From positions 12,626,318-12,690,317 of the forward strand of contig NC_058506.1 of the NCBI RefSeq assembly GCF_020382885.2: DNA of 64,000 nt. The letters are read 5' to 3'. This document shows positions 36,731 to 57,100 of the stretch, piece after piece. Origin of the DNA: Scatophagus argus. Lineage: Eukaryota > Chordata > Actinopteri > Scatophagidae. Position 1 is the stretch's first letter. Each line of letters opens with the position of its first letter. The translations under genes were made by a program, and so were the position numbers. A model generated the notes under the pieces. It had not been told where the DNA came from, did not search any database, and saw only the letters and a list, made by a program, of their open reading frames with translations.

Positions 36731-39700
36731 ATGTCCTCTGCCATGGCAAAGCATGAGGCTGGGAGCACCAGCCCTGTGGTGCGTCAGATAGACAAGCAGT
36801 TTCTGGTCTGCAGTATCTGTCTGGATCACTACTGCAACCCCAAGGTCCTGCCCTGTCTGCACACCTTCTGTGAAAGGTAACTAACATTTGTGCTCTCTAC
36901 TTCAGTGGCAACTGGCAAATCTCCTAATTACCTGCACTTCCCTCAAGCCAAACCTGACACAAACCCAAGTCTCCACATGCCATCTGCTACATGAGGTTTT
37001 TCCTGGCCATGCTAAGAAGGCGGGACAAGGCACTTTTTAGCCCTTTCCCTACCAGTACTTATCCTCCCATCCAATTACAGAAGGATTCTTCTCATATTTG
37101 CGTGGTTCCTAATAGAGGAATCTCATCTATTGCAAATCCCTACACACAATTAAACAGCTCAGAGCACATCTCCTCACTGACAATAAATGCATTCCTCAGC
37201 ATCAGGCAATGCAGTCTGAGAAAAGGCTCATTGTTTGAAGCCACAATCACAATGCCTCAATCTACAGTTCCTCTAAAAGATGACACCCCTCAGGTGATAC
37301 TTATTCTTAACTTATTCTAGTCTTTTCCTGCTGAGCCAAGCAGCCAAGCAGTCAAAGTGGATGGACAATTACGAAGGAGGATATACTCAGAGGTAGAGAG
37401 GATAACTAGGATTATATTTCAGACTGGTTTGCTTCTAAACCTATCAAACAAATATTTATGGAATAGTTTTGAATAGCCACACAAAGTATGGGACAAATCC
37501 TTTTTCCATGCAGTGTGACGGACATTTGCCCACTGGAGGGCAAGTTTAATCCCTGGTTTAACTGGATGGCATGTGATCTGGAGCCCTGCTGAGGTGAACA
37601 GATTTTTTGTCTGGAGCTATAGATGATGTTGCCAGACAGATGTTTTAATACTTGATGGGTGCATGTAGCTTGGGGGGGTTTAAGGCTGACCTGGCAAACC
37701 CTCAATGGGCCCGGTCTGTTTAGTAGCACTGTGTCTCTTTTAATTTTGTTCCTCTTTTCCTCTTCCAGTGATTATCCATCACTGGGAAAGTAAACTCACC
37801 ATGCAGCTATTTCTTAGTATCCTCATTGTGTGCTCACTATTGAGAGATCATGATTGCTGCAGGTTATGCTACTGTTTCAAATTATGCCAAACAAATTGCA
37901 TCTCAGAGGCGTGTGGCTACTTGAGCTCATAATCATGATTGTACTTAGCAAGGATGTGTGCCGCACTATCACTGATTAGTCAATGAATCAGTTTAACAAA
38001 AAAATGATTTTCCCTGGTTTATATCTCTGCAAATAATGTCTTTTGTTTGTTTATTTTTTGTTTGTTTTTTCAACTGTGCTGAATGTGCTGGGAATTTTTC
38101 ATATTTGTCATTTTACAAACCAACAAGTACTCAAGTAGTTGCACATTGACGGATAACTCACAGAACAATAAAAATGATTACATGTGGGATTACAGCCCTT
38201 TTCACCATATATCTTTTTGAGCCTTTGGACCCCAGCTGGTTGTGTGTCTCACAAAACAACAGTTATTTATCCAGGCCTCAGAGTGTTTGACACAGTAGAA
38301 AGAGACTTTTGTCAAAGTCTTCCACTGCTCTCAAAAGCTCAAGACTGCAGTTTACAAAGCCTTGGTTGCCACAAGCCTGTGTGGTGTCATAAATTTAACA
38401 GAATGGCGTCAAAATGCAGTCCAAGCAGTTGTCAGACATCCTTGTGTACAATGACAACAGAGACTTATTCTCAACTCAGACCTCAGGTTTCTGACAGCAC
38501 TAAAACCAGAAGAGCAGTTGTACATCACATGCTGCATGGCAGCTGGGCTGTAGGCCAGTGGTGTGGTGTAATCTGAATGTTGTCGCTGAAATTTTCTTAC
38601 TGTGGTTTTGGCTTAGACTTGAAGGTGTCTGATGTTAAATAGATTGCCTCCTAATGATAACCAAACCCGCAGAACATCCTCAGCCTTCAGGTGCTGGTGG
38701 GCTGGATGTGTGACTGCTGCCAGGATGAGGCTAGGCCAAAATCCAAAACCTCCTTACAAACATGCACATGAACACACACATGCAGACGCATAAACAAGCG
38801 TGCAGCACACAAACATCCGTTCTGACTGAAGTCTTCAGTCTCTTTGCATCTCTGTTAGGCATATTAGTTTGTCAGCGATTCGCTTACTCAAAGAGAAAGT
38901 GTGTGTGTCTTCTCCTGAGGCTGTGGGTTCTGTCTATCGACTCTGGTTTACACTTTTCCCCTATTTGTTGTGACAGGAGCACTATTTAGGCCCTGTCTCC
39001 CAATTATGGTGATAAGGTGACAGCTCTCTCTCTTCCTCGAGTGTTTCCCATTCCTTCTCTCTCTGCTTTATTGGTAAATTGAATGTGACTAATAATTACA
39101 GGCTGAACAATGCAAAAGCTCAGGTAGATTTACTCTAATTTTTGCTTTCTTCATTTGCTTGTTGCCTCCCTCCAGCTGTCTCCAGAACTACATTCCCCCG
39201 GAGTCTTTGACGCTCTCGTGCCCAGTGTGTCGGCAGACGTCCATCCTGCCAGAAAAAGGAGTTTGTGCTCTGCAAAACAACTTCTTCATCACTAATCTCA
39301 TGGAGGTTTGAGTCATAATCCCTTTTTACCTCTGGTTGCACACAGATTACAGGAACAAAAAACAACAGACAGATGTTAACAACAAAGCAAAGACCGTTTA
39401 AAACAATTACAGACATTAGTCAAAGAAATAGGACTTATGGTCTGTCTTTCTGTACCGCTGCTTTCGTGAGAACCACATTTGGTGTTGAACAGAGGGAGAA
39501 CATTTTTATAGAATGAGGTAATTCTGGACTGTCCTTTCTTCTTCAAGGGGCTCTTTTTAGGGTTTGTTCTAAATTTAGGGTCATATAGTTTCTATCGGGC
39601 ATGTAAGGGTGATGATTAAGGTTAGCACTGGGGTATAGAGAGTGAATGTATTGAATGGAGGGTACTAAAAATGTACAGGAATGTGTGTTTGTGTCACGAA

Positions 39701-41571
39701 GAGAATGAAATCAACAATAGATTGCAAGGAAATTCAAATAGGACACATGGAACATACTATTATTGTGACTTGATGTTGGTTTGGGACCTTTGTTCCATAT
39801 CATTCTCTCCCTTTTCCTTTGCCTATTAATTGTCAAGAGTCAATAAAGTAAAAAGTGAGGATAAAACAGAAAAGATTATTGAAACTAGCTAACTGAAAAA
39901 CAGCGTCATAAATTTTGAAATTCTTTCAACCAGGTCCTTCAGCGAGACCCAGAGTGCTCGCGGCCAGAGGCCTGCAGTGTCCTGGAGTCAGTCAGCGCTG
40001 CGGCTGCAGGGAAGCCCCTCTGCTGCCCAAACCATGAGGGGAAGGTGGGAAGCTCTTCTGTGATGTCTCAGACTAGTTGTCGCCTTAACAAAGTTGCCCT
40101 ACCTCTTTCGTTTTCAGCAATAATAAATGTGAAAGCAGCACAGTCTTAAAATGTCTTACTTACATGCAAAGCCCAGCACGAGTGAGAGAGCAGTTTGTCT
40201 CCCCCTGCAGGTGATGGAGTTCTACTGCGAGTCATGTGAGACAGCCATGTGTTTGGACTGTACAGAGGGCGAGCACCGGGAGCATGTGACCGTTCCCCTG
40301 CGGGACGTCGTAGAACAGCACAAGGCTGTGCTGAAGACGCAGCTGGATGCCATACGCAGCAGGTGGGGACTTAATATGCCGATAAAGCTTCAAGAATATT
40401 TCCTTCACATCGGGTGTTCGGAAGCTTGCCCCAGATTTGGCATCTGCTGTTAAAGATCACTTATGTTATGTTGTGTCTGACATGTCAAAACATGGTAGTG
40501 TGTGGTACAGTAGAACAGGCTCATTTTCATTAGAATCAATAGAATTACACAGTTTTGTAGATAAAGAGCTGGTTCTTCATTGGAATATTACATTTTATAT
40601 CAGATTTATTACTCAGTCAAAGCTGTGACTTTTAAACTCTTGTGCTTCTTTTAGTTTCAGTTCTGCAGTTATTTGAAAGAAAACTTCACGCTGTGTCATT
40701 TTTCAGGCTTCCTCAGCTAACAGCAGCCATCGAGCTGGTCAGTGAGATCTCTCGCCAGCTGAATGAAAGGAAAACTGAGGCGGTAGCAGAGATTACCAGT
40801 ACGTTTGAAGAGCTGGAACGGGCGCTACATCAGCGCAAGACTGCCCTCGTTACAGACCTGGAGAACATCTGCAGCACGAAGCAGAAGGTTACCTATGTTT
40901 CACACATTCACATACATAGTATAGGCGTTTGCATCTTTACACACTGTCAGATGCACAAACACACACAGACATTTTACGAACAGGTAGTCAAACATGATCT
41001 GTCACGTCTCTCATTCCTGTCAACACAATTCAGCCTGCTGACTTAATGATTTTGACTTTTCCACTCATCCTCTGTCTCCTTGTCTTGCTCATTTGTGCTC
41101 TTTTCCTTCCTCCTTCCACTTACCTGAGTGCAGGTCCTGCAGGCTCAACTTTCATCTCTCCTCCAAGGGAAGGAACACATCCAGAGCAGTTGCAGCTTTA
41201 CAGAGCAGGCTCTCAGCCATGGCAGTGCTACTGAGGTGGGCTGGCAGATTTTAATTTGTAGAAGCAAGCTAGAAAATACATATGGGAGGCTATTGGGTGC
41301 ATTGCAGAAGTGTAGCAGGATGTGAGCTCTTTTTGTATTTAAAAAAATATTTATACAATAAAATACAACATGTGTCTTTTGCAAGTGTAGGTGCTGCTAG
41401 TTCAGAAGCAGATGAGTGAGCGGGTAACAGCACTGGCCCGACATGACTTCCCAGAGAGACCACATCAGAATGCACACCTGGATTGTCAGGTATTGACTGC
41501 GGACACTGACGTTTTGTTTTGTAAAAATGTGGGCGTTTTTTCTCACTTTAGCAGGGGGCCATTTCTCAAAG

Positions 41572-41624
<53 letters not shown>

Positions 41625-44600
41625 GAACATACATATTAAAGCTGCTTTAAGTGGTTTTTGAGAGATATTTTGACAACCTCTATCCCAACACGCTCACACG
41701 CACAGCCTTAATGTTCTAGCAGCTTGTTTATTGTTATCTCATTGCACTTCTGGCACTAAGTCCAATATTCAGTCTTCTAGTTTGTTCCCCACCAATTCAG
41801 TAATGAGAACAATGTCAAAGTCTTTGGCCTGATAGATACTTGATTCGCTTCACCAGCTGTGGTTTGTCCCTGCCACACGTGAGTTTTTTGGGGAGAGAGC
41901 AATGAGGGATATTGCAGTTGAAAATATTATATAGCTTTTGTGCTTTCTGCTCCAGGTGGAAACTGAAGGTCTGCGACGCTCCATCCAGAACTTGGGTGTT
42001 CTCATCACCACATCTGCTGTGGCTCACACCTCCGTCGCCACAGGAGAGGGTCTTCGCCATGCAGCAACTGGGCAACACCACACCATTACTGTGACAACAA
42101 AAGACAAAGTACTGTCTTCAAATTATTTAGCCTTCTTTTTGCTACATGTTCAGTGAAAACTCTGGATAAAGCAAACTTTTTTGTGTTTGCTTTGCATTAA
42201 CAACATGTTTCAGTTTTTCATTCAAATTTCATGCTGTTTTTATCTGTTTTTGCTGTTTTATTGTTCTTTTTCAAAAAGTCAGTTATTTTATGGTGGTCAT
42301 CAAGTCAATTTATAGGAGCAAATGTGATGTGTCCTGTAAAAAGTTCTGCCTTAGATGTTGAAACCATATGAATATTGCTTGAACAACAAGAGATTTAGGT
42401 TGGTCTGAAATTGATTCAGTGACCTTTCTTTGCAGGATGGGGAGTTGGTGCGGACAGGAAATGCTATTTTAAAAGCAGAGATAACGTCTGCTGACGGGAG
42501 CCGGGCTGCAGAAACAGAGATAGCGGACAATAAGAATGGGACGTATGAGGTGGGCTACACTTTACGCTCTGAGGGAGAGTACTCTTTTGCTCTGTCGCTA
42601 TACGGCCAGCCGATACGTGGCAGCCCCTTCCGCCTGCGGGCGGTCAAGCCCTCAGATGTGCCACAGTCTCCAGATGACGTGAAGAGGAGGGTGAAGTCCC
42701 CCAGTGGGACAGGGGGCCACATACGGCAGAAAGCAGTGCGACGGCCTTCCAGCATGTACAGCACCACCAAGAAAAAGGAGAACCCCATTGAGGATGAACT
42801 CATCTACAGAGTGGGTAAGACAGATGTCCCATCCAGGAGAGAAAGCCCGTACACTATACTTATGTATAGTATACAGGCTTTCATCATATCAGTATGATGT
42901 GGGCCTACATCACATTGGGAAAAGCACAAAATGTCCTCTATAAAGACAGCCTGCATTTTTTACCATATAAAATAAGTTTTTGGATTGATATCCTCTCCCC
43001 GAGGCAGCTACTGTTTTCATTCCATGCCGTTAGAATACAGATTGAAAATCAGCTTGCAGTGGGCTGATAGAAGAGGTGACATCCAGAAAAAACATTGCTT
43101 TCACAGTATGTTCTCAGGAGGTCAAAAAGCAGAGAACAAATATGGATGTTGTGAAAAGGGTAGCAGGAAGAATCGGTTCCCTACAAACTTATTACTAAAA
43201 TGTCCCTGCCATGCAAAGAATGTAACTTCTATAATTAGCTGCACAGCATGAGCAATTATTTTAGCCAAAACCAAAAATATTGCACAATGAGACAAAGATG
43301 AAAATATCAAATTTCATATTTACTCAGTGTGTTACTATTTATTTGTAAGGTTCCCGGGGCAGAGAAAAAGGGGAGTTCACAAATCTGCAGGGAATCTCCG
43401 CATCTGGTAACGGCAGAGTGGTGGTGGCCGACAGCAACAACCAATGCATACAGGTGAGACAGACGCAGGGACGAAGGTGCAACTGCAGCATGTGCAACCA
43501 TGTATGGTTACATAGAAGAGGAAAACACTTGATGACATGTTTCACTCAGAAAGATGCTCTTTGGTGAAAATGATTACAGATATTCTCCAATGATGGGCAG
43601 TTCAAGATGCGCTTTGGGGTCAGAGGTCGGTCTCCCGGGCAGCTGCAGAGGCCGACAGGCGTCACTGTGGACATGAACGGTGACATTGTGGTGGCCGACT
43701 ATGACAATCGATGGGTCAGCATCTTCTCCTCCGATGGCAAGTTTAAGGTGAGATCTCCAACAATCCATCCATTTTCTGTACCGCTTATCCATCAGGGTCG
43801 CTGGAAGGTGAGATCTCATAGCATGTAAATGGTACAAAAGATATGGTGTTTATTTGTTTGTGATTTCTTTCCCTATTGAAGTAAAAGAAAATCCTGCATG
43901 AACAACTGAAATTACTGCTCCAACATTAGCCTCATTCTTGCATAAAACTTGAAGAAATAGAAAAAGGACGCTCATTTACAAGAAAATTATTTCAAAGACG
44001 TTCACATCTTCACTTTCTTTCCTCCCTCACAGAATAAGATCGGAGCAGGTCGGCTCATGGGTCCTAAGGGTGTGGCTGTGGATAAAAATGGACACATCAT
44101 CACTGTGGACAACAAGGCCTGCTGCGTCTTCATCTTTCAGTCCAATGGGAAGTTGGTGACTAAGTTTGGAGGCAGGGGGACATCTGACAGACAGTTTGCA
44201 GGTGAGAAGGAGGCCTTAATAGTAGGCCTCATGTTAACACCGACAGGGAGCTCACAAACAATCCCCTCTCTCTCAAATGACTCTGTCAGCGGGGCAGCAA
44301 TGTCTGCCAGCTTTTAAAGTAACTCCTTCATGATATTTCCCCAATTTTGCACAATATATGGCAACACAAAGTACCATTTGGGCTCTACTATGCTTGAAAG
44401 AGTTCTGCAACATGTTTTGCAGCTTTCATTTCTCTACTGTACAGGATTTATGTAAGAAAATGTCCTCACTGTGATGTAGGTGCAGTTTAAAATGGCAAAA
44501 GCTTGTGGCAAAAGAATGAGGTGTATTGTCAAAAAGCTGTCTTTCTAAAACTGTCTTCATACAAAAACACATGCATGCAGTAAATAAAACTATCAGAGAG

Positions 44601-46399
44601 GAATAAATAACAATGATAACAATAATAAGGATGTTCCCAGTGCAGACCTGTGTGTATTTCTCTACTTTTGTTGAAACTTTTACAGCGAGTTTGAAAGAAA
44701 AAGAATATTGTTTGGTTCTCTCATTATATTTCTGAAAACCGATCAATGCATTACATCACATGCTGCATGCTGTTTAAAACAATAAGCCTGTATACATACA
44801 CATGTAGGCAAAGCCCCAGGCGTTACAGTGACTCCCTGCTTCCCTCCACAAACTGCACCTATGCTGAGCACCCTACTCTATTTTCTTCTTTGCTTATCTT
44901 TTATCTCTGACTACCAATTTTTCTTTCTTTCTTTCTGTTCTTCCTCCTGTTTTCAATCCAGAAAAACTTGGCCCAAACTTAAATAAATCTGGCTCAGTTT
45001 TCAGTAAGTACTAAGTGTGGCCTTGCTGCAACCTTAATCCCACAGTGCGGTGCCCTCTGTCTAACCCGACTCCTTGATTATGTCTCTGACCTCCTCAGAA
45101 TGTTGGATCAAGTACAACAATAATCAGAGATAAATCTGCACACACACATTGTGATAATCATTATTGCAATAACGAACATTTTGTCATGTGCAATGTGTTT
45201 TATTGTGTAGATGGCAATGAAAAGATCAGTGAATGATTTTCAACTGCTCCGACTCCAAATCTCCTAACCAAAACAATGAGTGTGACAAGATCTCATTAAT
45301 GTACAATTTCATATAAATAGCTAACCATAATACATTTTTATAACCATGCATATCTAAGACAATAAAACAGAGGAATGGAATCTGAGAGCCTTGAGCCTTG
45401 CCATTAATCTAGTGTAGTTTTAGTTACATTTTGATAGCCTAAAGAAACAGGAGATCAGTGGTGTAACTCAAGGCAAACCACAACAGCTAACCATAATATT
45501 CAACTATGTTTTGTAATTTCAGTTTTAGACACAACTAGTCAAACTTTGTGTTGGAACGACCCACTAACGTTGAAAGGAAATCATGCAAACCACAGCAAAA
45601 GTACAGCAAGTTTCCACAATAACTTTCCCCTCTCTCCTCATCCAGGTCCGCACTTTGTCGCAGTGAACAACAAGAATGAAATTATTGTGACCGATTTTCA
45701 CAATCACTCTGTGAAGGTAAGACATATCTTATGTCTCTGAAGCTGCCACAAGCATAACAAATGTTGCAGTCCTTCATTGTTATGTATTCCTTCATTATCA
45801 TTAAGACACATGTACATTTTAGTCTACGGCAATCAGGTGCCTTATGGAGATGTAGACAAAATGTGTTTACTGACTTCCTGTCCCAGGTGTACAGTGCAGA
45901 TGGAGAGTTCTTGTTTAAATTTGGCTCCCATGGTGAAGGCAATGGCCAGTTCAATGCTCCCACTGGTGTAGCTGTGGACGCCAATGGAAACATCATTGTA
46001 GCTGACTGGGGAAACAGCAGAATACAGGTGAGACAGTCTATATTCAGTCTACTTTCAATTATGCAACTTTAGGACAAAATTAATTTTAATTGATACAGCT
46101 TTGTTTTTAATCAGTGAGTATAAACACTGAGGTTTAGGTCACAAAGGAAAAGTTACATAAAATTATAGAGCTATGGAAAATGATGCTCAACGGTAAAATC
46201 TGATGCAACATGACCATGAGCCTTTGTGGGGTTTTTTCTATTCCAGGTGTTTGACAGCACAGGCTCCTTCTTATCTTATATTAACACCTCAGCAGACCCG
46301 CTGTACGGCCCCCAGGGCCTCGCCCTCACCTCTGACGGACACGTGGCTGTTGCAGACTCTGGCAATCACTGCTTTAAGGTTTACAGATATCTTCAGTAG
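36731..46399 (+). CDS. trim3: TRIM3, RING/B-box/filamin/NHL E3 ubiquitin ligase (complete, 15 coding exons, 752 aa)
   Basis: TRIM3 is a TRIM-NHL ubiquitin ligase of neurons and endosomes. Exons: 36731-36876, 39176-39305, 39934-40044, 40211-40362, 40707-40887, 41134-41235, 41391-41489, 41956-42108, 42436-42814, 43350-43453, 43580-43747, 44033-44201, 45646-45716, 45887-46027 and 46247-46399. All phases join and give 752 residues (human about 744). RING: C27, C30, C42, H44, C47, C50, C64, C67. The B-box lies near 123-160, the coiled coil to about 290, a filamin repeat ([16 protein letters not shown] onward) to about 433, and the NHL propeller from about 487 to the end, [26 protein letters not shown] and [11 protein letters not shown] favour TRIM3 over TRIM2. 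Translation may also start at the internal ATG 36743 (MAKHEAG), which has a good Kozak context. Residue 49 is Ser where mammals have Arg. Intron 11 has a duplicated donor (separate entry). Confidence 0.96.
39444..39712. repeat. Second, degraded dispersed repeat in trim3 intron 2
   Basis: It contains TTTTTAGGGTTTG, AAATTTAGGGTCAT, GATTAAGGTTAGCAC and a tail with ACAGGAATGTGTGTTTG. The layout of TTAGGG-like words resembles the repeat at 35066, but similarity is partial and the assignment tentative. Confidence 0.35.
41574..41624 (+). repeat. Compound (AT)n(GT)n microsatellite
   Basis: About 18 AT units followed by 7 GT units in trim3 intron 7. It is a probable polymorphic, hairpin-forming tract. 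Confidence 0.9.
43758..43804 (-). mobile_element. 5'-truncated retroelement tail with 13-bp target-site duplication
   Basis: The 47-bp insert reads on the - strand as a tail ending near GAAAATGGATGGATTG, a common fish LINE/SINE 3' end (GGATAAGCGGTACAG precedes it). It is flanked by the perfect direct repeat AAGGTGAGATCTC at 43745-43757 and 43805-43817. The repeat includes the last codon of trim3 exon 11 and its GT donor, so the insertion duplicated the 5' splice site. Confidence 0.85.
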
Positions 46400-49713: not shown

Positions 49714-50349
49714 CTCTAGTTCATCTTTTCCGACCTGGAAGTTTTGAGAAGTCAACCACAGAGAGGGCTACGAGTTGCCAAAGTAGCAGACCAAGAGGCG
49801 GGTAAACAAGCTACACTGTTCCAGACTGGACACAGTCTCTGGAGTAAGGTGCTTTATTTTTGTTTTGCTCAACTTGAGTGAAGTGTCCGAATAGTTTGTG
49901 CCTCCCCGCTCCCAAGCACCGACTCAGGCCTGCAACAGGGGTTTATTATTGTTATTAATTTGCTGGTGTGCTCGTGTGAGTAGGCCCCATTGACTTGTCA
50001 TTGACTCGGACTTGAACTGAGATTATTCTGTTTACATACAAAATAAGTTTGTCACGGGGAAAACCAGTGAGCAGAGAGTCGTATTAGTTTCTTGTATTTG
50101 TTATTATTATTTACCCTAATTTTCCAAAGTAAACACGTTTATTGTTCTTACATTCTGACTTCAGTGTGTGTATGAGTGGTGGCCTCCCTTTTGAAGGTTT
50201 CCATACATACATGAAGGTTTGCTGAAAGGTCTGATTTTGATAGTGACAGTAATTTTGCTAATTGAACTCAAGAGAAAAGATAGACATTTATTATACACTC
50301 TTTAGCTGATTTAACGAACTCAGAGCCCCTCCCTGCCATCGGTGGAAAA

Positions 50350-50756
50350 ATGGTGGGCTACACTTCAGCATACCAAGACATTTTGGACAATGCTATACTT
50401 CCTGACTGTGCTCCAGTGCACAAAGCAAGGTCCATAAAGACATGGTTGGATGAGTTTGGTGACTGGCCCTCACAGAGCCCTGACCTCAACCCCACTGAAC
50501 ACCTTTGGGATGAACTTGAATGGAGATTGTGAGCCATGCAGCATCAGTGCCTGATCTCACAAAAGCTCTGCTGCATGAATGGGCAAAAATCCCCACAGAA
50601 ACACTCCAAAATCTTGTGGAAAGCTTTCACAGAAGAGTGGAAGCTGTCAATGCTGCAAAGCCGTCTATGTATTTTGAATGCAAATTTATCAAATTCCTTG
50701 TTGATGTAATGGTCAGGTGGCCCAGTACTTTTGTCTATGCAGTGTATGTGCTATAG
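50350..50756 (+). pseudogene. Tc1/mariner transposase fragment (DDE C-terminal part, broken)
   Basis: An open frame from 50350 reads YQDILDNAILP, then jumps straight to DCAPVHKARSIKTWLDEFG and WPSQSPDLNPTEHLWDELE. These are the Tc1 signatures around the second Asp and the final Glu of the DD34E triad. About 15-18 residues expected between DNAILP and the DCAPVHKA block are deleted. At about 50520 the frame shifts; the continuation (ASVPDLTKALLHEWAKIP) lies in another frame. The 3' side ends CAGTACTTTTGTCTATGCAG, a terminal-repeat remnant. The N-terminal DNA-binding region and left end are absent, so the element is dead. Confidence 0.85.
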
Positions 50757-53567: not shown

Positions 53568-54098
53568 TCAGTAATAGTGACATATCTGCAACCTGCTGCC
53601 TGGATCATTCTTCCCTGGGCTGAAGAAAGGGTAGACAGGCTCTTCAAAGCAGGTGTCAAACATGTACAGTCTCTTCATCGTGACAGCATCATAGAAACTG
53701 AGACGCCCGTTGTCATAGTCCAGGTACACGCCGACCCGAGGAGAGTTCCAGTAGTCAGCGACAGGGATGCGCCCATGTTCTCCGTTGGCATACAGCCGGT
53801 CCTGCAGACACAAGCTCCAGTATCCTGCTGAGGGAGTGAGGCTGACAAAGCCCTTCCTGTTGCTGCACTCAGTGGTGACTCCCAGGTACCACACCCCTTT
53901 GTCCTTCACATCCACTTCCCAGTAGTGCTGGCCACTCGCGTACTGGGCTGTGGCAAGGACACCACAGAACCGGTTGAAGCGGGCTGGCAGGTCTGGCTCC
54001 TGGTTACGAACACGACCCTCCTCCACTTTCGTGTCAAAGTCTGAGATGAGCAGGTTTGGGTGAGCCGTGTCTGGGTCTAAGGTGAGGTTCTGCGGCAC

Positions 54099-54186
<88 letters not shown>

Positions 54187-57100
54187 AGAGAGAGATTAGT
54201 TTACCTTGCTTTTACATTGGGCTGAAGTTGACAAGGCACTGAGAGAGAAAAAAAAATTACAATTTTGTCCAGGAAAAGTGGCAGATTTGCAAATCAGAAC
54301 CACTTCATTGCTGAAGTGTAAATAGGACAACTAGCCAACTTGTCCAGCTAGTGTTAGTTTGAATGAGTGTCTGAAATATTCTTTTGCTTTACCAGTTGAA
54401 CCCAGAATGTTCTGTGATGCAGCAGTGCTACCCCCTGCACTACAATGTCATACACCCTCATAAGCAACACTCCAGACCGCATTCAGCACATGCTTCTAAG
54501 TGTACACTCACTGGTGTGTAGCACGTGCATCATCTTCTTCCACATGATAAGCTGGAAGGGCCCTGAGAAGTCTGTAAATTCAGTCGGACAATTAACTGGC
54601 TCGAGGGATGTGAATGGCTTGCAATGGATGACTCTGTGGAGGGGAAAAAAAAAAAAAAGCTATCAAGTAAATGTCCATATTAAATAACAGAATTCATATA
54701 ACTTCAAGAGTAAAATTCAAGTACTTTTCAAATATTTTCAACATACCTAAACCAATAATTTCCAGACTCTCAAGACCTTTATCACAATGTTTGAATTTTT
54801 ACTGAATGAATGCAAAAACAACATCTACAAAAATTTTTTATACCAAAAGTATTAACGTCCATTGTCACTTTATTTTACCTACTCATTGTAGCTTTGTCAG
54901 GTTTGATGAGGATTATTTCAATTTTGAGGAGACAACAAATACAATGATGGGATGATTCATTTCAAATATACGATTTTTGGTTTACAAAATCAAGCACTTT
55001 TCAAAGATTCAAACGTATTCTTAACATTGAAAACATAATGGTTGCAATCGACCATTTTGGTAACTCTTCAGACTTGGTACAAACCCTAAAATGAAATATG
55101 GTAAATTACTTACTCATTGAAAGTCTCAGCGAGGCTCTGTTGGATAAACAAAAGCATACTTTGATTACTATTGAACACACTTTATGTTTCGCATCACCTC
55201 AAAAAAAAATTTTGTTTACATACCGTTGTGGTGGTTTAACATGCAAGTCAAACACTAAAACATTTCATGATGTTTTTGAAACTTTGGTTCATGCCAAAAG
55301 AGAATGAAAGAATGAATGAAAAAATTGCACTACCCAATACATGTACCAATCTACTATTTCAGCATATTTTGACAGAATTAAGTCAATGCAATGCAGTATA
55401 TTTGTATATAATCCCTGCTGCATACTGACAGAGGTGTTATGCATATCTACTTATGAAGCCCTGATATAGGCATGGTGAATGGTGTGAATGTCAGGGTTGA
55501 TATGTTAGACTGACCTCAAAGCTAGTTTTCCCACTGATGTGGCTGTGGATGTTAGCTATAGCTTTGTCTACAGCTTCCACCTCCGTCTCCACAATCTTCA
55601 AGTTGTCGTCTATCACAGCTATGGTGGCCACCTCCTCAGCGTCCAGGCTCTCAAGCAGTGAGTCTCTCTCATCTAGCAAGAACTGGACCAAGGCACCGAC
55701 ATCCGCCTCAATCTTCTCCTTGAGTCTCTGTTTCTTCAGCTGGAGGGACAGAGAGGCTCAGGATGAAGAATTTGATGAGCAGGGCCAGTGGAGTAGAGTG
55801 CAGTGTGTACTCTAATATGTATATGTCAAGTACTTCATGACAAAATAGGGTAAATTTGTCAAGTCAAGACAAGGTTGTAAGGTACACTTTAAGCTTGGTC
55901 ATGTAACATGTACATGTCTTCAGCAAAAAAGGTCTACCCACCCGAACTTCACTTTTGGTTCGCTCATCAGCCGTTATAACTTTCACACATTGAGACTTTT
56001 GCCAGTTGAGCTCCATTAGCCTCAATTTCAACTCCATCTGTAATAAAACATATTTGAGATACATGCACACAAGAAAAACAGAACATCATGAATAAATCAC
56101 ACATTAAAAAAAAGAACAAAAAGGCCATACAATTTCTCATCTGTTGGCCAAATGTACAGCAGGACCTTACCTTCATATCATTCACAACTTCTGGCACTGG
56201 TGCAACCTCATGGTGTCTGCAATGACAGAACAATGATGAGCTGTCAATGTTTTACAGAGATCAGTTTGTCACACTACCCCAAAACACTTCAGGTGACCAG
56301 TGGAGTTTTCTTAGAAACCAACATTACATTCATTGGTTCTTTCCAAACTACAGTGTGCCTAATAAGCAGTACTGAGCACATTTCCTTCCTTAAAAACAAT
56401 TGAAAACCACATTTGAAACAAAATCATAAAAAAAACAAAACAGATCTGTCAGTTAGTGGCCTTCATCTCTGTCTTTGTTAGTGCAAAATTGAAAAAAAAA
56501 AAAGAGCCCATGAAAACCATTGGTAATTGCTATTAGTGGTCAAAAACTCCAGAGAATCTTTAAAAACAAGTAAACAGCTGTGAATAAAAACACTCTGTGA
56601 GCCGTGTTGCTAATAGTTGTTGCCCAGTAGTGCTTGCTTAAACTTGTTTTCCAAGTAACCATTCACAGACCACTGTTTTGGTTGGTGTGTCTTTATCCCC
56701 TTACTTCACCCAAACACAGCCAACCTGGCTGGGAATATAAGGGAATATAGTCAAAGGCACACTTTTTATTCAGAATAATGAAAAGCAAAAGTTAGTCAAT
56801 AATAGTCTGCATTAAAAAAAAAAAAAATTCAAATGGGTTGAAGGCATAACAAATATTACAGTGATTTCAACAAGTCAAATCTGTGTAATTATGACAAAAG
56901 AAAATATCTAGATGTCAGTAAAAGCATTTGCCCATTTTCAAGACTTACACTGTCTACACCTACTCAAAGTTTATTAATTTAATTTAAGTTGAGGGCTACT
57001 CTGGCTCTTGTGTTGTGTAGCAGACCGACATGAAACTCCTTTCCATCTTGACACCAACGTCAACAAAATCTGTGGAAAGTGGAAATTAGTTGTTGTTTGT

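Follow-up and report, generated by a model that had tools for sequence, protein, structure and literature searches.

The trim3-type gene occupies the forward strand of the window, the whole 64-kb stretch of DNA that was analysed (C14:12626318-12690317 of the searched genome, G000), and has an additional ATG 4 codons upstream of its MAKHEAGS start (Table 1). Pfam matches in the gene comprise RING, B-box, filamin and NHL domains. The best solved match of the NHL region is human TRIM3 (7qrw) with 552.9 bits versus 526.3 bits for TRIM2, and TRIM3 also outscores TRIM2 in a second comparison (400.4 versus 378.5 bits). Judged by these scores and domains the host is a trim3-type gene, putatively orthologous to TRIM3, in keeping with the trim3 assignment of the first-pass annotation. 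In the gene model the six NHL exons A to F, of which exon B follows the acceptor ...ttacag, are linked by GT-AG introns, and with either of two donors at the end of exon B the reading frame is kept as far as the stop codon; the splicing model covers these six exons, the upstream coding pieces having been located individually. Downstream of the gene, the opposite strand encodes PRY-SPRY sequence that belongs to a second gene (53568-54197). At 50284-50529 on the forward strand there is a remnant similar to the terminal part of a DDE_3 transposase (E = 2e-6; 28.1 bits against a Pfam gathering score of 28.6), which we take to be Tc1-like.

Table 1. Coordinates (positions in the window) of the trim3-type gene, its NHL exons and the insertion at the exon B/intron junction
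Feature	Position	Strand	Remarks
trim3-type gene (RING, B-box, coiled coil, filamin, NHL)	36743-46399	+	MAKHEAGS start to YRYLQ-stop
NHL exon A, 104 nt	43350-43453	+	separated from exon B by a 126-nt intron
NHL exon B, ancestral form, 168 nt, 56 codons, phase 0	43580-43747	+	ends at donor 1
Target-site duplication (TSD), left copy	43745-43757	+	exact 13/13; ancestral donor AAG/gtgaga = donor 1, exon end 43747
Potential exon extension, 60 nt, 20 codons, stop-free	43748-43807	+	translation of DNA
5'-truncated SINE-like 3' end, antisense to gene, 47 bp	43758-43804	-	42 bp from consensus position ~322 plus 5-bp tail
TSD, right copy	43805-43817	+	exact 13/13; donor 2, exon end 43807; U1 duplex energy same as donor 1
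NHL exon C	44033-44201	+	acceptor ctcacag/AATAAG, donor TTGCAG/gtgaga; partner of either donor
NHL exons D, E, F	45646-45716, 45887-46027, 46247-46399	+	GT-AG borders

The junction of exon B with its downstream intron is characterised by an exact direct repeat, AAGGTGAGATCTC, the two copies of which enclose a 47-bp insert, CAACAATCCATCCATTTTCTGTACCGCTTATCCATCAGGGTCGCTGG. Direct reading of 43200-44700 finds both 13-mers exactly where they had been reported; a third site at 39014 differs by 2 mismatches and no further site exists at up to 2 mismatches. Each copy contains a complete splice site, AAG/GTGAGATCTC, as the first-pass annotation had noticed, and the identity of donors 1 and 2 is unbroken from -3 to +10. 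The predicted pairing with the 5' end of U1 amounts to -9.6 kcal/mol at each donor and lies within the range of the paralogue donors (-6.9 to -10.6 kcal/mol). The window holds two exact, non-low-complexity 13-mer direct repeats at 20-200 bp spacing, the AAGGTGAGATCTC pair and one at 45319/45485, and 60 order-2 Markov sequences of 64 kb contain 0.6 such repeats on average with a maximum of 5, and thus the bare 13-mer repeat is by itself only mildly unusual. It is decisive because it flanks a known repeat exactly and because sibling copies of that repeat carry the same kind of flanking duplication. The second pair is part of an exact 14-bp direct repeat, AGCTAACCATAATA, at 45319-45332 and 45485-45498 (spacing 166 bp) within a trim3 intron and is unexplained.

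A protein search of the own genome returned 17 matches from 25 candidates. Apart from the exons of the window itself, these include close paralogues of the exon B/C pair on three contigs, C5 (91-95% identity), C2 (80-82%) and C23 (70-74%), which the comparison covers; weaker NHL matches (34-44% identity) lie on C17 and C20. In all three paralogues exon B ends in KFK/GT, at the same codon as donor 1, the insert is absent and the introns that follow measure 100, 532 and 84 nt. Donor 43747 is therefore taken as the ancestral position, and comparison with these paralogues of the same genome, as opposed to orthologues, indicates that the 60 nt were gained in the C14 gene. The human TRIM3 and TRIM2 chains likewise have no residues at the extension site. 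The predicted empty site with a single donor is thus found, within paralogues, on C5, C2 and C23. The gene on C5 is possibly a further trim3. The C2 paralogue carries a weak AAG/GTACAT site 54 nt past exon B (U1 duplex -5.6 versus -9.6 kcal/mol) that is in frame and open over 18 codons, which illustrates how chance may supply a second site that is open and in frame.

Read in the sense of the element, the insert matches the consensus of a repeat family at 40 of 42 positions. A 201-bp query searched against the 570.7-Mb genome (48 contigs) gave 892 first-look candidates, of which 40 were scored and all 40 matched, i.e. the own site and 39 other places at 87-98% identity. The fetched places, together with a further copy in one of the stretches, yield a set of 41 distinct copies including that of the window, all chosen by likeness to the 3' end of the repeat. 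According to eight long copies, the repeat measures about 361 bp before its GGAT-type tail (approximately 370 bp in total), with a consensus that starts GGGCGGCACGGTGGTGCAGTGGTTAGCAC...GGTTCGAATCC and ends ...GCGACCCTGATGGATAAGCGGTATAGAAAATGGATGGATGG. By these matches the family is a high-copy, roughly 370-bp SINE-like repeat of the 571-Mb genome. The head of the consensus, which the window copy does not include, carries GGTGCAGTGGTTAGC and GGTTCGAATCC, similar to the A and B boxes of RNA polymerase III. ARAGORN finds no tRNA in the repeat consensus or in six loci, and the repeat is accordingly named SINE-like, since its head resembles polymerase III boxes but no tRNA is found. A partner LINE with a shared 3' tail would presumably be of the L2 type.

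The members of the family display the features of retroposition. Flanking duplications, a common 3' end and variable 5' truncation are the signature of target-primed reverse transcription, and the 41 copies share their 3' end with its simple-repeat tail while their 5' ends are spread over consensus positions 1-322. Exact words of at least 10 bp are shared by the 5' and 3' flanks of 23 copies, the window copy included, versus 3 of 1640 mismatched pairs in which flanks from different copies were combined; at 12 bp or more the figures are 17 copies, again with the window copy, and none of the 1640 pairs. The remaining 18 copies have flank words of 4-9 bp only, some of which by eye are duplications with a mismatch. 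The 13-bp duplication of the window copy is typical for the family. With dispersed copies, variable TSDs and 5' truncation all present, the insert is classified on sequence grounds as a retroposed SINE-like copy. The 13/13 duplicate and the duplications around sibling copies also bear out the proposal that a TSD copied the whole 5' splice site, and the suspected retroelement tail in reverse orientation, matched at the 39 other places, can be refined to the last ~42 bp plus tail of the ~370-bp family. Consensus 321-322 is the cut point in 4 of the 41 copies (that of the window, L007, L016 and L025) and 246-252 in another 5, which suggests that recurrent 5'-truncation points would seed many 45-bp micro-insertions genome-wide. 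Both differences of the insert from the consensus recur among the copies, the C in 7 and the A in 3 of the 41 (window included), and since siblings share them and 42 bp plus 13 bp give an uninformative bound, these differences do not date the insertion. No further tail copy was detected inside the window at up to 3 mismatches, pattern scans of the viral_contigs and genome_contigs collections for the tail gave 0 matches, and a literature search with the letters of tail and head retrieved no paper on the repeat by title or abstract. A microsatellite primer that contains GGGATAGGCTCCAGC appears in the available text of a neotropical fish study (PMC5855144).

It is proposed that reverse transcription of a SINE-like copy took place where exon B of trim3 meets its intron, that it stopped after about 42 bp and that the copy was inserted antisense with a 13-bp target-site duplication. 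As the duplicated stretch contains the entire 5' splice site, the gene carries two identical donors at a spacing of 60 nt. The upstream, ancestral donor would then give rise to most of the mRNA and a normal NHL propeller, and a minor share spliced via the downstream donor would encode 20 extra residues in frame. In the simplest case these would lengthen the turn that precedes the outermost strand of blade 2, at the bottom of the propeller. The duplication, the repeat family, the single donor of the paralogues, the equal U1 pairing and the open, in-frame 60 nt are demonstrated. The combined explanation, truncated SINE-like insertion with a dominant upstream donor and a minor 20-residue isoform, is considered moderately probable.

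The second donor does add exactly 60 nt without a stop codon, with the NHL exons in frame to the end of the gene. An open frame is also seen in 3347 of 9135 sampled 60-nt stretches of the window, a multiple of three is expected for one length in three, and every one of 28 sibling antisense tails, a count that covers part of the copies and some loci twice, can be read through in all three frames. Because so many 60-nt stretches, a third of lengths and all 28 sibling tails qualify, the open frame is weak evidence, and as a sign of selection it is rejected in view of the open sibling tails and window stretches. Of the first-pass annotation as a whole, the insertion, the TSD, the donors, the open extension and the host gene stand, the exon lengthening is a prediction, and the open multiple-of-three insert loses the strong evidential value attached to it, given the chance rates and the open antisense tail of the family.

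The choice between the donors depends on the local setting. The intron upstream of exon B is 126 nt long; the one downstream measures 285 nt if counted from donor 1 and 225 nt if counted from donor 2. The GC content of the exon (0.548) exceeds that of the introns (0.437 and 0.338). According to the available text of PMC9225289, of two equal donors the upstream one is favoured under exon definition (introns >250 nt) and the downstream one under intron definition, when both introns are short (<250 nt). In five exon-defined minigenes described there the upstream of two identical strong donors was used exclusively; weakening of the donors led mostly to skipping of the two larger exons, and in the smaller ones the preference for the upstream donor persisted. 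Near-equal donors between a short upstream and a long downstream intron showed a heightened upstream preference in an event database (PMC9225289, same text). Upstream use is therefore judged likelier here, as this class prefers it and the ancestral protein is strongly conserved, and a dominant ancestral donor with a minor extended isoform is most likely. Exon B nevertheless lies on the definition boundary and the rule could reverse, because the downstream intron from donor 2 measures 225 nt.

The donor duplicates also carry an 8-nt palindrome, GAGATCTC, at 43750-43757 and 43810-43817, so that the two donor copies are complementary in the pre-mRNA. Of five foldings, four predict strong donor-donor pairing (0.66-1.0) and the fifth a value of about 0.05, and the 86-nt fold has a z of -1.17, its stability being reached by 23 of 200 shuffles. 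Averaged locally, the pairing of donor 1, donor 2 and the donor of the joined flanks is 0.56, 0.58 and 0.51 in 70-nt windows, 0.63, 0.66 and 0.64 in 80-nt windows, 0.64, 0.70 and 0.63 in 120-nt windows and 0.63, 0.71 and 0.58 in 200-nt windows. It is slightly higher at donor 2 than at donor 1, by 0.02-0.08, which is too little to decide between them. A donor-donor hairpin as the driver of splice-site choice was rejected on account of the z of -1.17, the one folding near 0.05 and the nearly alike local pairing.

By the pattern of the NHL repeat, the KFK/NKIG junction would fall inside the outermost strand of blade 2. The aligner placed QGRWKNKIG of the extended protein on EGKFKTKIG of 7qrw; against the TRIM2 chain 7qrv, the alignment of the same protein has a simple gap of 20 residues. 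The final residues of the extension, QGRWK, could thus take the place of the displaced start of the strand, DGKFK, and because QGRWK can stand in for DGKFK the 20 residues would bulge at the preceding turn. In the available text of PMC9634614 the NHL domain is a six-bladed propeller with four strands per blade, and blade 6 is where its two termini come together; the last four residues of TRIM2 are on the bottom surface and the top surface is the putative binding side. By inference the bulge would be on the bottom face, away from the putative top binding surface. Regulated and substantial use of the copied donor, giving a second propeller with a 20-residue bottom loop on blade 2 and an outer strand built from QGRWK, is a speculative proposal that we regard as unlikely. 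If true, a 47-bp SINE tail would have led to the near-instant, single-step birth of an in-frame isoform.

The alternatives to a minor isoform differ in how they divide the splicing between the donors. It is possible, albeit rather less than probable, that the insertion is a neutral passenger, with donor 1 doing essentially all of the splicing, insert and donor 2 remaining intronic and any long product at noise level. The exclusive upstream use in the exon-defined minigenes (available text of PMC9225289), the open frame expected of the antisense tail of the family and the closeness of the NHL region to human TRIM3, which argues against frequent disruption, all fit this explanation. The downstream intron of 225 or 285 nt is however at the boundary of intron and exon definition and the two donors are of equal strength, for which reasons it is not safe to predict zero use of donor 2. 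The opposite outcome, in which the downstream donor is the main one and most of the protein carries the extension, tolerated via an outer strand of blade 2 formed from QGRWK, seems improbable. It would agree with the classical intron-proximal donor preference of Reed and Maniatis (as described in the available text of PMC9225289), with the intron from donor 2 keeping its presumed pre-insertion length and with the strand-mimic sequence picked out by the aligner, but neither human TRIM3 and TRIM2 nor the three paralogues have an extension at the site and 20 residues inserted into a conserved propeller would probably be costly. Finally, an origin of the 60-bp repeat unit by local duplication, or by repair with filler DNA, in place of any retroposon is extremely improbable, for although the insert is very short and near 13-bp direct repeats also turn up in Markov sequences, its 47 bp are matched at 39 other genome places and siblings show the same flanking duplications, three of them with the same cut point.

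The favoured explanation, a truncated SINE-like insertion with a dominant upstream donor, describes ordinary retroposition in an uncommon and testable position, the functional weight of which hinges on transcripts. If the long form is made, a retroposon lengthens a conserved beta-propeller in one step without a splice site of its own; if it is not made, the gene is an example of tolerance to a duplicated donor. Searches for a duplicated donor retrieved no equivalent by title or abstract start, most subscription journals being outside the coverage, and those on TRIM3 splicing in fish no such isoform by title or abstract start. The closest precedent by analogy is the canine merle SINE in PMEL/SILV, the mirror case with a duplicated acceptor, for which a target-site duplication of 15 bp, along with the original splice acceptor, is described (available text of PMC7349775). 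In both cases an antisense SINE is situated at an exon-intron boundary, the splice site is duplicated and a choice arises between two sites. The merle insertion, as portrayed in that text, differs in affecting an acceptor and in its longer SINE, its poly(T) driving a cryptic acceptor and its visible trait, whereas the trim3 case involves a donor, a 47-bp remnant, two identical sites and no known effect.

Retroposon DNA may also enter a reading frame, as exonized Alu and SINE sequences do. Alu insertions near donor or acceptor sites that disrupt splicing are cited in the available text of PMC11321964 and, like the trim3 insertion, place a retroposon at a splice junction. In trim3, unlike Alu cases and exonized SINEs, the additional splice site is a duplicate of one that the host already had and was not brought by the element. 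Introners can take their splice sites from target-site duplications, one family adding four amino acids, but they create new introns and are mostly read as DNA-based elements (PMC9860276, in the text available), whereas in trim3 it was a donor already present that the retroposon copied, without any gain of an intron. An introner identity was rejected, since an intron occupies this position in the three examined paralogues, none of which has the insert. The minigenes of PMC9225289 share with exon B the presence of two identical donors in one exon; in the available text they are artificial and have 365-nt flanking introns, in contrast to the natural trim3 exon near the 250-nt boundary. A native exon with identical donors 60 nt apart and a downstream intron that is longer or shorter than ~250 nt depending on the donor represents a clean natural test of intron versus exon definition as rules of donor choice.
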